In this document: piece by piece, positions 2,154 through 32,941 of the stretch
Position numbering within the stretch: position 1 is the stretch's first letter
Layout: every line of letters starts with the position of its first letter
Virus record (IMG/VR): IMGVR_UViG_3300006923_000063
Coordinates: 1 to 38,602 of that record
Length of the DNA stretch: 38,602 bases
Origin: a virus
Strand: one strand, 5' to 3'
The notes under the pieces: generated by a model
Database searches by the model: none
Told to the model about the DNA's origin: nothing
What the model saw: only the letters and a program-made list of their open reading frames with translations
Position numbers and translations under genes: made by a program

Positions 2154-2306
2154 ATGTCAGAAACAGGCGGAATGATAGTAATAGTATTGCTTATAGTAGG
2201 AATACTAATTTATAAGAAAAGTAAATCCAGCAAATCTGAAACTACTGGTGGTAACGGTGGTGGAGGTTATGATGGTGGTAACCAAGAAAATCAACAACAC
2301 AAGTAA
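2154..2306 (+). CDS. Small single-pass membrane protein (50 aa)
   Basis: One transmembrane helix (residues 7-20, MIVIVLLIVGILIY) is followed by a basic stop-transfer stretch (KKSKSSK) and a glycine-rich, hydrophilic tail. The topology suggests N-out/C-in. An ATG at 2149 in another frame stops after 8 codons, so 2154 is used; GAGG at 2141-2144 is the Shine-Dalgarno. It ends just before the tmRNA gene. Function unknown. Confidence 0.5.
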   Translation: MSETGGMIVIVLLIVGILIYKKSKSSKSETTGGNGGGGYDGGNQENQQHK

Positions 2307-2310
2307 TTCA

Positions 2311-2556
2311 GAGAAGCGTAAGTAATTATAGCACGGATTTGGGATCGTTCCCCAATAGCTCCACCAAAAAAGTATAATGTATTTTTTTGATGGGGCTAAG
2401 AGTCGGCTTCGACGGGCATAAGAGTTTACGTGGAGAGTAGGTTTCAATAGCCTTAAATAGAGAGAAAACGTAACCGCAAACGACGATATGGTATTTGCAC
2501 TGGCAGCTTAGGCTGTTCGGGGTCTAGGGCACCTGGCAACAGAACGCTCTATTAAT
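2311..2556 (+). ncRNA. ssrA: Circularly permuted (two-piece) tmRNA
   Basis: Transfer-messenger RNA, which frees stalled ribosomes and adds a degradation tag. The acceptor piece comes first. It has a T-arm (TTGGG 2339-2343 with CCCAA 2351-2355, 7-nt loop), the acceptor strand TAGCTCC (2356-2362), A73 and an encoded CCA (2364-2366). After about 25 nt of spacer comes the coding piece, starting GGGGCTA (2392-2398). It pairs with TAGCTCC over 7 bp including the G3-U70 alanine identity pair. A TTCGACGGG block follows at 2408-2416. The tag ORF 2476-2511 encodes ANDDMVFALAA and a TAG stop. Helix P2 joins the pieces (GTTTACG 2424-2430 with CGTAAGT 2317-2323; ATAA 2418-2421 with TTAT 2326-2329). CACCTGGCAACAGAA near the 3' end is a motif I recall from alphaproteobacterial tmRNAs. 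AATAGAG 2456-2462 with CTCTATT 2547-2553 closes the message domain. Exact ends are estimated. Confidence 0.93.
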
Positions 2557-2723: not shown

Positions 2724-3170
2724 ATGAATAGCATAAATCCTAGCAATAATAGCATTGCGAAAATCCAACGGGCCTTAGAATCTTCATTCTTAGGACTTCC
2801 CACAAATCTATCTGATGCATACTATCATGCAACTGATACATATCCATTCTATGACATTCTTCAAGACGAAGGCGGAGAGAACATTATTCTGCAAATCGCT
2901 TTGGCAGGATGGAATAAAGACGACATTAAAGTTGAGACCAAACGAGATCAGCTGACAATTATTGGCAATGTTAATGTAGATGAATATGAAGTTATGAATG
3001 ATAAATTCCGCCATGTACATAAAGGCATATCTCAAAAGAACTTTGAGAAAACCTTTACACTTGGTGCAGACATTGTTGTAGATGATGCTGATATGAAAAA
3101 TGGAATTCTATCAGTAACCATGCACAGAGAAGTTCCTGAAAAGGATAAGCCAAGATTACTTAAATTGTAA
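2724..3170 (+). CDS. Hsp20-family small heat shock protein
   Basis: ATP-independent holdase chaperone of the alpha-crystallin/Hsp20 family. The protein is 148 residues with an N-terminal arm (1-40). The alpha-crystallin domain spans about 45-140, with the family-typical stretches IILQIALAGWNKDDIKVE, LTIIGN and DMKNGILSVTM. The terminal PRLLKL could provide the I/L-x-I/L-like oligomerisation tail. An upstream TTG (2697) is in frame, but ATG 2724 has GGGG 10 bases upstream and fits family length. T4-like marine phages often carry such genes. Its long folded leader and late promoter suggest regulated, late synthesis, perhaps to help fold structural proteins. Confidence 0.9.
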   Translation: MNSINPSNNSIAKIQRALESSFLGLPTNLSDAYYHATDTYPFYDILQDEGGENIILQIALAGWNKDDIKVETKRDQLTIIGNVNVDEYEVMNDKFRHVHKGISQKNFEKTFTLGADIVVDDADMKNGILSVTMHREVPEKDKPRLLKL

Positions 3171-4432: not shown

Positions 4433-4608
4433 AAAATAAAATATATGGTCACGATAATTGGCTGGAAGAAGTTGAATTCCAATTTGGTGGTAAAGTTAAA
4501 TATGATTTTAGATCACACATATTATATGCAAAGATTGGTAATAAAACAATTGGCGAATTTAATGAAACAACATACGTGGGATGGGCATTAGAAAATGAGC
4601 AACGATAG
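4429..4608 (+). CDS. Hypothetical protein (59 aa)
   Basis: ORF wedged between the zinc ribbon (ATGA overlap at 4429-4432) and gp33 (overlap of 14 bases at 4595). The product alternates charged and aromatic residues and ends at TAG 4606. No family is recognised. Tight coupling on both sides and the absence of another gene in the gap support it. Confidence 0.55.
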   Translation: MKNKIYGHDNWLEEVEFQFGGKVKYDFRSHILYAKIGNKTIGEFNETTYVGWALENEQR

Positions 4609-4828
4609 AGCTAAGAATGCTTTCTCTCTTAGAGTAGAAACACAAGCAAAACAGAATGATATATTATTGATTACTGCTCTTGCAAATATATGTGAGGATT
4701 ATGGTATCGAGGCACCAAAGGCTTTGGCATATATCAACAAAGGATTAAAAGAAAAAATTCAAATCGAAGCAGAAGATAATAAAACAATAAAGGCTGATAA
4801 TTTAGAACGACCATCTTTGTTTATTTGA
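4595..4828 (+). CDS. gp33: Late transcription coactivator gp33
   Basis: Short helical protein of 77 residues assigned as gp33 mainly from its place immediately before gp59 and gp32, as in T4-like phages. The C-terminal hydrophobic end LERPSLFI matches the kind of terminal clamp-binding motif that gp33 uses to contact the sliding clamp. The middle helices (ILLITALANICEDYGIEAPKALAYI) would contact the RNA polymerase beta flap. It is smaller than T4 gp33 (112 aa). Its job would be activating the TATAAATA promoters found through this window. Confidence 0.7.
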   Translation: MSNDRAKNAFSLRVETQAKQNDILLITALANICEDYGIEAPKALAYINKGLKEKIQIEAEDNKTIKADNLERPSLFI

Positions 4829-4829
4829 T

Positions 4830-5420
4830 ATGACACCATTTGAAGTGTATAAACAATATGTAATGATCAAGTTACATTTTAATAGCGACACATATGATTA
4901 TATTAAATTTTGTGGAAAGAGTAGAAATATTTCATACAATGCATATGATAAACGAAAAGACAAATATTATTTTGAAAAAATAGCTAAGAAATATAGCAAT
5001 GAAGATATTGTACCATTCTTTGTTTCTAATTTTGTAAATGATCCAAATATGTGGTCAGGAGATTTAGCATCATTTGATAAATCTGCTAAATTGTTCAGAG
5101 AATGGAAAGGAAAGGTATTATCCTTAAAGAGATTAGTCAAGGATGATATGAAGAATGTGGTTGCATTTATAGAGGATAGAGGTTTATCTGTAGCACAGAT
5201 ACTAGAGGTCCCTGAAGGCAGCAATACACACCCTATTTTGATACGATTCTTATTTCAAGGAATGATATCAATAGAAACAGTAATATATTTAAATAATATA
5301 TTTACATTTATAGAGAAGTATGATACTATGTTAGTAGATCCGCTATGGGAACATCAGTCAAAACTGATTAAAAACTATAGTAGGTTCTTACATAACATCG
5401 ACTGGAAACATCTGCTATAA
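4830..5420 (+). CDS. gp59: gp59 helicase loader
   Basis: All-helical loader of the gp41 replicative helicase onto gp32-coated forks. The length (196 aa) is close to T4 gp59 (217). Recognisable blocks in T4 order are VYKQYVMIKLHF near the start, YNAYDKRKDKYYFEKIAKKY, FVSNFVNDPNMWSGDL (T4: ISNLVANQDAWIGD), and a C-terminal LIKNYSRFLHNID. It begins 1 base after the gp33 stop and is followed by gp32, its partner. Its stop codon lies inside a late promoter. Confidence 0.88.
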   Translation: MTPFEVYKQYVMIKLHFNSDTYDYIKFCGKSRNISYNAYDKRKDKYYFEKIAKKYSNEDIVPFFVSNFVNDPNMWSGDLASFDKSAKLFREWKGKVLSLKRLVKDDMKNVVAFIEDRGLSVAQILEVPEGSNTHPILIRFLFQGMISIETVIYLNNIFTFIEKYDTMLVDPLWEHQSKLIKNYSRFLHNIDWKHLL

Positions 5421-5502: not shown

Positions 5503-6423
5503 ATGAGTTTTGCAAATCTAAAACGCAATCGCGGAAAATCTTCAGAAGCAATCAAAAAAGCACTACAGGGTAATTCTCAAGGTGGTGGTTCATCACGAGA
5601 AAAGAATCCTAATCTATGGTATCCAAAAACTGATGATGCTGGAAATGGTTATGCTGTGATTCGCTTCTTGCCCCCTGCAGAAGGTGCAAATCTTCCATGG
5701 GCAAAAAGATATAAGCACGGATGGAAAGATAAAAACGGATGGATGATCGCTGAATGTCCAACTACACTTGGTAATGATTGCCCTATCTGTGAAGCCAATA
5801 AGGAATTATGGCAGACAGAAGATCGTGAGAATCGTAAGATTGCTTCACGCCGAAAGCGTAAGCTTGAGTATTATTTAAATATTCTTATCGAATCAGATTC
5901 TAAGAACCCAGAGAACGAAGGTCAAGTTAAAATCTTCCGTTGTGGTACTAAGATTTTTGAAATGATCCAGAATGCTCAGAATCCTGAGTTTGAAGATGAA
6001 GTAGCATTCGACCCATTTGATTTTTGGGATGGTGCTTCATTTAAGTTGAAGATTCGTAAGTATGAAGGTATGACTAATTATGATAAGTCAGAATTCAATA
6101 CTCCTTCTGAGTTAATGGATGGTGATGATGAAAAGTTAGAAGAAGTTTATAAGCAACTTCATGACTTGGGTGAATTTGTTAAGCCAGAGATATTCAAAGA
6201 TTATGATTCTCTGAAAACCAGATTCCATCGTGTCATCGGTGCGGACAGCGTAGCTTCTGCTCCGCGGTCAGCTGAAGAGGCAGTGGCTCCAAAGGCCGCA
6301 CCGGCTGCAGCTCCTGCTGAAGAGGCAGTGGCAAAAGCACCGGAGTCGGCAGAGGCCGAAATGGAAGCTGCTGAGTCGGCTGATGATGCTCTGGCATTGT
6401 TCAGAGACATGGCCAACGGCTAG
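5503..6423 (+). CDS. gp32: gp32 single-stranded DNA-binding protein
   Basis: Replication and recombination SSB of the T4 type, 306 aa (T4: 301). The basic N-terminal cooperativity arm is FANLKRNRGKSSEAIKKAL. The OB core begins with AGNGYAVIRFLPP. Zinc ligands are visible as H72, C85, C93 and C96 (T4: H, C, C, C). Other T4-like blocks are YYLNILIESD, NPENEGQVKIFRCG and SFKLKIRKYEGMTNYDKSEF. The C-terminal tail (from about 245) is Ala- and Glu-rich and acidic, as needed to recruit gp59 and polymerase. It contains a 17-base DNA duplication (6271-6287 and 6316-6332). The stop overlaps the stop of the convergent tape-measure gene. Confidence 0.95.
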   Translation: MSFANLKRNRGKSSEAIKKALQGNSQGGGSSREKNPNLWYPKTDDAGNGYAVIRFLPPAEGANLPWAKRYKHGWKDKNGWMIAECPTTLGNDCPICEANKELWQTEDRENRKIASRRKRKLEYYLNILIESDSKNPENEGQVKIFRCGTKIFEMIQNAQNPEFEDEVAFDPFDFWDGASFKLKIRKYEGMTNYDKSEFNTPSELMDGDDEKLEEVYKQLHDLGEFVKPEIFKDYDSLKTRFHRVIGADSVASAPRSAEEAVAPKAAPAAAPAEEAVAKAPESAEAEMEAAESADDALALFRDMANG

Positions 6424-29659: not shown

Positions 29660-29692
29660 GTTATTATCTTTTTACTTTTGAGGTTGAATTTT

Positions 29693-30421
29693 ATGATGAA
29701 TGTACACAACATTCGCAATAGGTTGGTGAATGAATTAGAGCAAGAGAACTTTATTACAGATAAATCTGGAGTAAAGACTATTGAACTAATAGGACAATCC
29801 TTTATAGCCGATGAAGATTCTATCATCGGTCTACCAAATTCAGAATATATCAATAGAGAAATCAATTGGTATGAATCTATGTCTTTATATGTAAATGATA
29901 TACAAGGTGAAACTCCAGCGATTTGGAAACAGATATCTTCTAATCATGGAAGAATCAATTCTAATTATGGTTGGTGCATATGGTCAGAAGAAAATGGCAA
30001 TCAATATGACCATTGTTTAAAATCATTAATTAATAGTTCTGATACTCGTCGTGCCATAATGATTTATACTAGGCCCTCTATGCAAACAGATTATAAAATA
30101 GATGGTATGTCAGATTTTATGTGTACAAATGCTGTACAATATCTCATTCGCAATAATAAGATGCATGCAGTAGTGAACATGAGAAGTAACGACGCATGGG
30201 CAGGCTTCCGCAACGACTTCGCCTGGCAAGATTTTGTATTAGATGAATTAATACAAGATTACAATGCAGGATTAAGAGTAAAAGAAAGAATAGATCGAGG
30301 TAATATTATCTGGAATGTGGGGTCAATCCATGTATATGACCGACAATTTTATCTGCTTGATCATTGGAATAAAACTGGTGAATGGATTAAAAAATCAGAC
30401 TACACTGGAAAATGGAAATAG
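29693..30421 (+). CDS. gp42: Deoxycytidylate 5-hydroxymethylase (gp42)
   Basis: Thymidylate-synthase-fold enzyme making 5-hydroxymethyl-dCMP from dCMP and methylene-tetrahydrofolate. The 242 aa align by eye with T4 gp42 (246 aa) almost throughout: DKSGVKTIELIGQSFIADE, INSNYGWCIWSEENGNQYD, RRAIMIYTRPSMQTDY, GMSDFMCTNAVQYLIRN, NMRSNDAWAGFRNDFAWQ and IIWNVGSIHVYDRQFYLLDH. C144 is the nucleophile. D175 in FRND is the Asp that replaces the Asn of thymidylate synthase and selects cytosine over uracil, so dCMP rather than dUMP is the expected substrate. The start at 29693 has TGAGG upstream. It is expressed early from the sigma70-type promoter. Confidence 0.95.
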   Translation: MMNVHNIRNRLVNELEQENFITDKSGVKTIELIGQSFIADEDSIIGLPNSEYINREINWYESMSLYVNDIQGETPAIWKQISSNHGRINSNYGWCIWSEENGNQYDHCLKSLINSSDTRRAIMIYTRPSMQTDYKIDGMSDFMCTNAVQYLIRNNKMHAVVNMRSNDAWAGFRNDFAWQDFVLDELIQDYNAGLRVKERIDRGNIIWNVGSIHVYDRQFYLLDHWNKTGEWIKKSDYTGKWK

Positions 30422-30442
30422 GCGATAGTAAATCATTCATAA

Positions 30443-30472
30443 ACCTTCACTATTATAAATATTCATAGAGGT
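30443..30472 (+). promoter_or_regulatory. Hairpin hiding the homing endonuclease RBS
   Basis: ACCT (30443-30446) can pair with AGGT (30469-30472), and CTAT (30450-30453) with ATAG (30465-30468), with a 3-base bulge. The Shine-Dalgarno GAGG (30468-30471) lies in the 3' strand and the late promoter in the loop. Only read-through transcripts would contain the whole hairpin. Confidence 0.45.
30454..30461 (+). promoter_or_regulatory. T4-type late promoter before the homing endonuclease
   Basis: Perfect TATAAATA, 19 bases before ATG 30480. Initiation near 30467 would remove the 5' arms of the hairpin at 30443-30472. Confidence 0.75.
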
Positions 30473-30479
30473 AAATAAA

Positions 30480-31100
30480 ATGATTAAATCTTATGTTTAT
30501 TGGATATATGATGATAGTTGTAATGATGTATATACAGATGGATATGTTGGAGTATCTCAAGACATTGTTCAAAGATTCTCTGCACATAAAAGGTTAAATG
30601 AAAATATACCAAATAGTGATTCATTAAAAATTAAAGAATTATTTTATGGTGATAGGGGCGATTGCTTCAAATTAGAATTAAATTATAGACCAAAGAAAGG
30701 AATCGGGTGGAATAATGCAATCGGTGGATCTCATGGATGGAAGGTTGGGTTTTCACATAGTGATGAAACTAAAAAAACAATGAAAGATAAATGGACACCT
30801 GAGCGACGACAGAATGCAAAAGAAGTTAGAATACGAGAGAATAAAAAATTAATTGGACAAAAACGACCAAAACAATCTGAAAATATGCTAGGTCAAAAGA
30901 ATCCAATGTATGGTAATACCCATAGTAACGAAGCAAGACGGAAAATTAGTGAGGCACATATTGGAAAAGCACCATCTAATAAAATAGAATTATATTGCAT
31001 ACATTGTCAGAAACGTGAAGGCCCATATAAATTAAAAAAATATCATGGCCTTGGAAAAAAGAATTGCAAACAAATACCAACTAAAATTGAGGATAATTAA
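30480..31100 (+). CDS. GIY-YIG homing endonuclease with NUMOD3 repeats
   Basis: 206 aa. The N-terminal GIY-YIG nuclease (1-85) shows YVYWIYDD for the GIY strand, GYVGVS for YIG, the catalytic-arginine helix DIVQRFSAHKR and NNAIGG near the end of the domain. It is followed by three NUMOD3-type DNA-binding motifs: GFSHSDETKKTMKDKW, GQKRPKQSENMLGQKN and GNTHSNEARRKISEAHIGK. The C-terminus has a CIHC...C pattern. It is a free-standing, Seg-like selfish gene inserted between gp42 and the kinase gene. It should cut a related phage that lacks it near this locus and be copied by repair. Confidence 0.9.
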   Translation: MIKSYVYWIYDDSCNDVYTDGYVGVSQDIVQRFSAHKRLNENIPNSDSLKIKELFYGDRGDCFKLELNYRPKKGIGWNNAIGGSHGWKVGFSHSDETKKTMKDKWTPERRQNAKEVRIRENKKLIGQKRPKQSENMLGQKNPMYGNTHSNEARRKISEAHIGKAPSNKIELYCIHCQKREGPYKLKKYHGLGKKNCKQIPTKIEDN

Positions 31101-31104
31101 TATA

Positions 31105-31722
31105 ATGACACACTATATAATAGAGGGTGTAGATAATTTAGGTAAGGGTACATTAATAGATGGCATCCAGCAATTAAATGGCCCATACATGATTCAACAT
31201 TTTGAGCGACCTATGTTTTCTCAAAAGATCAAAAATAACTATATGGAAGAATTTCCACAGATTGAAACTAAAGTTTTGGATTATGAAATTCTTAGACGAT
31301 ATCAGCTACAATCTTTTTATAATGGATTCCAGCATTTAAGACAAACCAATGTACCAACTATATTTGATAGGTTCCATCTTGGTGAATGTGTATACGGCCC
31401 ATTATATCGCGATTACTCTGGCGATTATGTTTTTCTGATGGAAAATATAATTGAAGATGCCGATGTTAGATTGATATTATTAGTAACTTCTGATTTTTCT
31501 TTTATACAGGATGATGGATTATCATTTGATTTTGAAGCTAGAAATGCAGAACAAGATATGTTCATTTCTGCATTTCATAAATCTAATATAGAAAATAAAA
31601 TAATTATTGATGTTAATCATGCTGGCGAATGGGCAGATCCAATTGTTATTCGTGATTTAGCAATTAGCCCTAATGTAAAAACATGTGATAGACGACTTGA
31701 ACCAAGGATTGAAAATGAATGA
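31105..31722 (+). CDS. P-loop deoxynucleoside monophosphate kinase-like protein
   Basis: 205 aa. The Walker A loop is EGVDNLGKGT (about residues 7-16), the form used by thymidylate and deoxynucleoside kinases (E-G-x-D-x-x-GK-x-T). A second signature IFDRFHLGECVYGPLYRDYS (about 90-108) resembles their DR-x(3-4)-E/S-x-x-Y block. The chosen ATG 31105 has GAGG upstream; in-frame starts further up lie inside the endonuclease gene. Next to a dCMP hydroxymethylase, phosphorylation of hydroxymethyl-dCMP is the obvious role, the job of T4 gene 1, but the specificity cannot be read from sequence. It overlaps the methyltransferase gene by 8 bases. Confidence 0.75.
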   Translation: MTHYIIEGVDNLGKGTLIDGIQQLNGPYMIQHFERPMFSQKIKNNYMEEFPQIETKVLDYEILRRYQLQSFYNGFQHLRQTNVPTIFDRFHLGECVYGPLYRDYSGDYVFLMENIIEDADVRLILLVTSDFSFIQDDGLSFDFEARNAEQDMFISAFHKSNIENKIIIDVNHAGEWADPIVIRDLAISPNVKTCDRRLEPRIENE

Positions 31723-32941
31723 TATAAAATATGCAACGATGATACCACTTATTGGTGGTGAGTCAATTGGAATAATGAATGCAATGGGTGGACAATTGCC
31801 AGAATATGTTTTAACATATGAGGCCTTTGGTGCTAATGATTCTCATTATATTAATTATCTACGAGATAAAAAAGATTGGACTGGAGAATACCATGTCATT
31901 GATGGTAAGGATGCAGTAATACCAAACCTAGAAGAATCAGTTGATTTTGTAAATTCAGTATGCCCATGTGCGGGTCTATCTGGATTATCAGCTAGTTCAC
32001 ATGCAGACTCTGCAACGAATGATTGGATGTACACTTCATCTGAATATGTCCTAGAACATGTCAAGCCAAAAGTGTTATGGGGAGAGAACGCCCCAGCCCT
32101 GGCCACTAACAAGGGTAGGAAGGTTGCTAACGCCCTTAAAGACATTGGCACGAAGTATGGATACTCGTTCCTGCTTATTAAGACAAGCAGCCGGCTACAC
32201 GGGAATCCACAGAAACGGGCTCGCACATTTTATTTTTTCTTCAAAGAGGACTATGTGCCGCATCTGAATATTCCTACACGGGATACTAAATCTTATTCGG
32301 AGTTAATATCTGAGGTTACTATTGATTCAGATGACCCAATGTCAATGTTGATTCATGCAAAAGCAGATAAGCCAACGGATGATCCATATTTAAAATATCT
32401 ATTACATGCCCATCAGATGAGCTATCCTGATTATTGCAAATCAGTAAATGATACAGAAACTGTATTGGCACTAATCGAAGAAACACCAGGTGGCTTTCCT
32501 GCAGCATCTGAGTGGCTAGCAGCTAATGACTACGAAAAGCAATCTAAACGTTGTGCCGCTATTCAGAAGAAGTTGGATGATGATAAAAATTACTGGGCAT
32601 ATTCTACTACTATCATGGGCCATTTTACTGGAGCATTCGTAGGAGCTGCACCACAAGCTTGGACTCATCCTACTGAAGATAGATATCTGACATATCGTGA
32701 AGGTTTACATATCATGGGAATGCCCGATGATTTTGAATTATTGAATCCTAAAAAGAATACAAATCACATTTGTCAAAATGTTCCAGTCAATACTGCAGAA
32801 GATATGACTCATGGTATATTAGATTATTTGAAAGGTAAGTATGATAATACGACCAGTGATTATGTAGTACATGATTTACACAATAACAAATCTGAGTCCA
32901 GAACAGTTATCCCTGCCCCACAAGTATCAGAGTTTTTCTAA
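31715..32941 (+). CDS. Divergent DNA cytosine-C5 methyltransferase homologue
   Basis: 408 aa. Motif order follows the C5-cytosine methyltransferases: a changed motif I (MIPLIGGESIG, residues 9-19, instead of F-x-G-x-G), a motif II-like acidic residue (YEAFGAND), motif IV with the catalytic Pro-Cys (CPCAGLSGLS, C85), motif VI ENA (124-126, normally ENV), motif VIII QKRAR (166-170) and a late N-T-A-x-D motif X. An AdoMet-type cofactor site and a covalent cysteine are therefore plausible. If the phage incorporates hydroxymethylcytosine, position C5 is already occupied, so it may modify residual cytosines, act on host DNA, or remodel the hydroxymethyl group. AAGGA precedes ATG 31715; an upstream GTG is less likely. 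Confidence 0.75.
   Translation: MNDIKYATMIPLIGGESIGIMNAMGGQLPEYVLTYEAFGANDSHYINYLRDKKDWTGEYHVIDGKDAVIPNLEESVDFVNSVCPCAGLSGLSASSHADSATNDWMYTSSEYVLEHVKPKVLWGENAPALATNKGRKVANALKDIGTKYGYSFLLIKTSSRLHGNPQKRARTFYFFFKEDYVPHLNIPTRDTKSYSELISEVTIDSDDPMSMLIHAKADKPTDDPYLKYLLHAHQMSYPDYCKSVNDTETVLALIEETPGGFPAASEWLAANDYEKQSKRCAAIQKKLDDDKNYWAYSTTIMGHFTGAFVGAAPQAWTHPTEDRYLTYREGLHIMGMPDDFELLNPKKNTNHICQNVPVNTAEDMTHGILDYLKGKYDNTTSDYVVHDLHNNKSESRTVIPAPQVSEFF

Follow-up and report, generated by a model that had tools for sequence, protein, structure and literature searches.

tmRNA is a bacterial RNA which releases ribosomes that have stalled and adds a tag to incomplete proteins. Two-piece tmRNAs have already been published for aquatic phages, including Melnitz, and Buchholz et al. 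described 53 such structures in phage genomes, 50 of the 53 from marine or aquatic phages, with a proposed role in the upkeep of hijacked machinery or in host-protein turnover (PMC9004378). Furthermore, the 2025 tmRNA database contains 79 phage tmRNAs (PMC11915505). Since phage two-piece tmRNAs have been both published and catalogued, the one presented here is not the first of its kind. The initial annotation had considered a permuted tmRNA to be unusual in a T4-like phage; this rarity did not hold, as two-piece tmRNAs of marine T4-like phages were in the literature (PMC9004378) and permuted tmRNAs are carried by more than 50 viral contigs, a number which is a lower bound. Our tmRNA is ordinary in kind and noteworthy for its fixed genomic slot and its odd T loop.

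The window, i.e., the whole stretch of DNA analyzed here, is a 38.6-kb virus record. It is a fragment of a T4-like phage, as had been proposed from the sequence, with genes for gp33, gp59, gp32, a DsbA-like regulator, baseplate and tail-tube proteins. According to Rfam, ARAGORN and reading of the sequence, it bears a circularly permuted, alpha-type tmRNA gene at 2306-2556 (+). The ssrA of Melnitz, a T4-like Methylophilales phage (MZ577097; PMC9004378), is likewise permuted, two-piece and located upstream of gp33-gp59-gp32, but its tag is ANDNYVPVDYALAA instead of ANDDMVFALAA, its T loop is GGCAGUA instead of AUCGUUC and the spacer between its pieces is 142 nt long instead of 25. Pelagibacter phage HTVC008M (KC465899) also has a permuted tmRNA in the same slot, between an exonuclease and gp33 (145161-145370), although it differs from that of the window in its tag (ANFNEYALAA) and T loop (UGCAAUA). 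The KC465899 record lists no tmRNA feature, and a hypothetical ORF runs with its 3' end into this tmRNA (5162-5371 of our extract L408). Concerning the families of Alphaproteobacteria (RF04321 and RF01849), the window shares with them the order of the pieces, the CCA, the resume codon GCA and the 3' hairpin motif, and differs in its low score, its T loop (AUCGUUC versus GGCRGUA) and its location in a phage. Finally, the beta-type permuted tmRNAs (RF01850) of viral contigs L269 and L276 have the slot upstream of gp33-gp59-gp32 in common with the window, but are of the betaproteobacterial type, with tags ANDEKFRIAA and ANEERFALAA.

Anatomy and detection of the tmRNA gene

We were able to assign the following elements, all on the + strand:

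2307-2366 (+): acceptor piece (RF04321 alignment), directly after the stop codon of the ORF at 2154-2306; 5' end approximate
2316-2322 (+): P2 helix strand GCGUAAG, pairing with UUUACGU at 2425-2431 (minimum-energy fold)
2339-2355 (+): T arm UUGGG-AUCGUUC-CCCAA (sequence); A54/U58 in the loop, versus the usual U54/A58 or alpha-type G54/G58
2356-2366 (+): acceptor 3' strand UAGCUCC (2356-2362), then discriminator A and encoded CCA (ACCA, 2363-2366) (sequence, Rfam alignment)
2367-2391 (+): intervening segment with an A-run/T-run hairpin, predicted to be removed on maturation (Rfam alignment; fold)
2392-2398 (+): acceptor 5' strand GGGGCUA, with the G3-U70 alanine identity pair (sequence)
2399-2416 (+): D-like loop region (Rfam alignment)
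2439-2453 (+): PK1-like hairpin AGGU...GCCU of the coding piece (Rfam alignment)
2476-2511 (+): tag frame ANDDMVFALAA and UAG stop, GCA AAC GAC GAT ATG GTA TTT GCA CTG GCA GCT TAG (ARAGORN; sequence)
2525-2551 (+): 3' terminal hairpin UAGGGC...GCUCUA with the alpha-type loop ACCUGGCAACAGAAC (RF01849; fold z -2.15)

The covariance searches and the ARAGORN run suggested in the initial annotation both recovered the gene. RF04321 (tmRNA_permuted) matched 2306-2511 (+) over the whole model with 81.1 bits (E-value = 3.6e-14; gathering cut-off 47 bits), while RF01849 (alpha_tmRNA) matched 2266-2553 with 60.1 bits (E-value = 2.8e-14; cut-off 50 bits). ARAGORN called the same permuted gene with the tag ANDDMVFALAA, and gave no tmRNA match in 200 simulated sequences of the length and dinucleotide frequencies of the window (7.7 Mb in total), which excludes a chance origin. 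The observation of a permuted tmRNA gene is thus confirmed. Its acceptor half precedes the coding half exactly as first placed, to the base, with the CCA end at 2366 and the GGGGCTA start at 2392, and the tag was read identically by the program and from the sequence. The acceptor stem (GGGGCUA/UAGCUCC) is paired at 7/7 positions and includes the G3-U70 pair noted earlier; the T stem is paired at 5/5. The tag frame is intact from resume codon to stop and has a hydrophobic C terminus (-LAA). The 3' hairpin presents CACCUGGCAACAGAA within a 6-bp stem (RF01849 alignment, fold), as the alpha-type motif had been described before.

A slot upstream of gp33-gp59-gp32

The genes which anchor the tmRNA within the phage genome are:

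4595-4828 (+): gp33 late-transcription coactivator (PF16805/PF08993 profile matches for the gp33-gp59 pair), slot anchor by synteny
4830-5420 (+): gp59 helicase loader (same pair of profile matches), slot anchor by synteny
5503-6423 (+): gp32 single-stranded DNA-binding protein (phrog_224), third slot anchor by synteny

Counted from where ARAGORN ends the window tmRNA, these frames lie at +1990, +2204 and +2898, on its strand. A calcineurin-like phosphoesterase gene (1499-2029) and a 50-codon ORF (2154-2306) are located 5' of it. Directly 3', at 2724-3170, there is a small Hsp20 chaperone gene, which the nearest relative, L343, has retained with 46% identity. The stretch that separates this gene from the tmRNA contains two hairpins which fold better than shuffled sequences (z of -3.2 at 2566-2590 and -2.5 at 2592-2650) and match no Rfam family. 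The Melnitz tmRNA is accompanied by a glutamine riboswitch, reported at a place comparable to 2566-2650 (PMC9004378), whereas an Rfam search around the window tmRNA (E-value up to 1) gave neither a glutamine riboswitch nor one of any other family. No smpB was seen among the subset of ORFs examined in the fragment. Elsewhere in the window, at 29678-32941, a thymidylate-synthase-like gene, a homing-endonuclease-like ORF, a thymidylate-kinase-like ORF and a C5-cytosine methylase gene follow one another, perhaps as a base-modification cluster.

Viral contigs were gathered by scans for tmRNA motifs and by searches for gp32 relatives, and the anchors were located with gp33, gp59 and gp32 profiles. 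The window has its tmRNA upstream of gp33-gp59-gp32 and on their strand, as do Melnitz, HTVC008M (gp33 at 146004, gp59 at the record start) and no fewer than 25 further viral contigs, some of which are near-copies of one another and not independent; besides the window, about 29 contigs show this position. The same arrangement, relative to whichever anchors were present, was found in 19 contigs retrieved by the tmRNA motif alone and in the nine tmRNA-positive contigs (9/9, covariance-model search) among 38 gp32 relatives. No contig with slot anchors showed the opposite order or strand, and the remaining tmRNA-bearing contigs, which end too early or show no T4-like anchor gene, are uninformative on the slot. 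Occupants are of both types, alpha (the window) and beta (L269, L276). Contig L014 also carries its permuted tmRNA (2248-2631) in the slot; its tag ANDESYRMVA ends in VA versus the usual AA, and ACCG stands where ACCA is expected.

The slot is not filled throughout. In the majority of gp32 relatives whose sequence extends far enough upstream, the slot holds no tmRNA, P-TIM68 has none, and cyanophage S-SSM7 has one outside the slot. The latter (GU071098, 21008-21227; 3009-3228 of our extract L409) is permuted, scores 78.5 bits with RF04321 and is labelled in GenBank as hypothetical protein SSSM7_025. On the gp32 tree, where the window forms a long branch that is not placed with certainty, the label "no tmRNA" takes 8 changes, at least 6 of them forced by supported branches, versus 16.8 with shuffled labels; the labels alpha, beta and other came from a crude motif and no type claims are drawn from them. 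Such a patchy but clustered distribution is what repeated loss and gain would give. In 18 slot tmRNAs, the acceptor and T stems were 100% paired with up to four pair types per position, versus a mean of 82% for shuffled partners, a count somewhat favorable to high pairing as the stems were located by maximizing it. These paired changes speak for selection on the tRNA-like part in slot phages generally.

Divergence of the window copy and search for a source

Among about 80 correctly parsed tmRNAs, the T loop of the window (AUCGUUC) is the only one without a purine at position 58. Positions 54 and 58 are occupied by A and U, respectively; U55, C56 and G57 are retained. All other correctly parsed permuted tmRNAs, viral and bacterial, follow one of three patterns (UUCRANN, UGCRANN, GGCRGNN), and each has a purine at 58 (L276, L279, L288 and L323, where automatic parsing of the T arm was unsuccessful, were excluded from the comparison). 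Purine 58 (UUCRANY, or GGCRGUA in the alpha type) is a usual trait of RF04321 members and not a threshold that defines the family. The altered elbow may be tolerated in the window lineage, or the RNA may be either specialized or decaying. Two further contigs are nearly identical to the window, L004 with 1 difference over 6470 bases and L008 (of which L012 is the reverse) with 0 over 5537; they are the same phage and thus add no evidence of purifying selection on the window copy.

The bacterial sample consisted of 385 genomes of one class, presumed to be Alphaproteobacteria since nearly all carry alpha_tmRNA. RF01849 scores were 143-313 bits in nearly all of them, versus 60 in the window. The best DNA matches of the window tmRNA to these genomes spanned some 30 nt in the 3' hairpin, the tag ANDDMVFALAA occurred in 0 of the 385, and neither tag pattern nor DNA similarity pointed to a host among them. 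The alphaproteobacterial source suggested initially consequently stands as a type, assigned by Rfam, and "source" amounts to that assignment. Against named phages, DNA similarity was absent for the tmRNA itself and confined to gp32 for the surrounding region, while the Hsp20 query gave no new relative spanning the tmRNA site. Matches to the acceptor-stem pattern in genome contigs were mostly gammaproteobacterial DNA in which ARAGORN called no permuted tmRNA; they are probably tandem tRNA-Ala genes.

Probable trans-translation and its alternatives

The RF04321 and RF01849 scores above their cut-offs, the ARAGORN tag, the stem pairing, the intact -LAA frame and the conserved same-strand slot are best explained by a phage-encoded permuted ssrA of alphaproteobacterial type, which would make a two-piece tmRNA working with the SmpB, AlaRS and ClpXP of the host and recycling ribosomes during infection (probability of roughly 0.7). 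The sequence anatomy, the model matches and the genome position are observed; expression, processing and function are inferred as follows. The gene would be transcribed within the replication-gene region, host tRNA-processing enzymes would cut at about 2366 and 2392, and the P2 helix (2316-2322/2425-2431) would keep the resulting two pieces joined. After alanine charging via G3-U70, host SmpB and EF-Tu would bring the tmRNA to ribosomes which have stalled on mRNAs cleaved in the course of infection, with ANDDMVFALAA added for ClpXP and release at the UAG (2509-2511). At a time when host mRNA is being destroyed, the phage would benefit from the recycling of ribosomes and the degradation of fragments, and this ordinary trans-translation would take place while the phage replicates and transcribes its late genes. 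The aberrant T loop, an RF01849 score far below that of nearly all sampled bacterial copies and the lack of smpB among the ORFs examined weigh against this reading.

Rescue or retagging during infection, as proposed at the outset, is plausible. In the retagging form, a tag unlike that of the host would divert host or phage fragments to a different protease or spare them from degradation; the absence of the tag from the sampled genomes is in line with this, but the C-terminal ALAA is the ordinary ClpX signal, and we rate retagging as very improbable. The divergent T loop lends itself to two other readings. The gene may be a host-captured ssrA drifting without function in the window lineage, for which no independent diverged copy is at hand (the sequence of L343 begins with the Hsp20 gene and narrowly misses the site). 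Such drift is unlikely, given that a gene-dense phage genome has all elements of the acceptor, T stem and tag in intact form and that the slot recurs across many lineages with paired stem changes. The unique A54/U58 and the low model scores would also suit a competitor which binds SmpB, AlaRS or ribosomes, works poorly because of its T loop and damps host trans-translation or tag-directed proteolysis. However, the gene has an intact CCA, an intact tag frame with its -LAA end and an intact stop codon, none of which a decoy would require, and the other slot phages have ordinary T loops; we rate it no higher than drift. It is most economical to assume that the phage supplies a two-piece tmRNA for ordinary trans-translation.

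On a wider scale, the chance is even that a dedicated tmRNA slot is maintained in the T4-like phages of alpha- and betaproteobacteria and is repeatedly lost and refilled with the alpha or beta type. If true, such a slot would imply selection in these phages on trans-translation at about the time when they turn to replication and late transcription. The comparison shows a ribosome-rescue RNA to be a recurrent part of the replication/late-transcription region in T4-like aquatic phages and not a stray capture, and the role of phage tmRNA becomes testable, as the slot phages Melnitz and HTVC008M exist as isolates.
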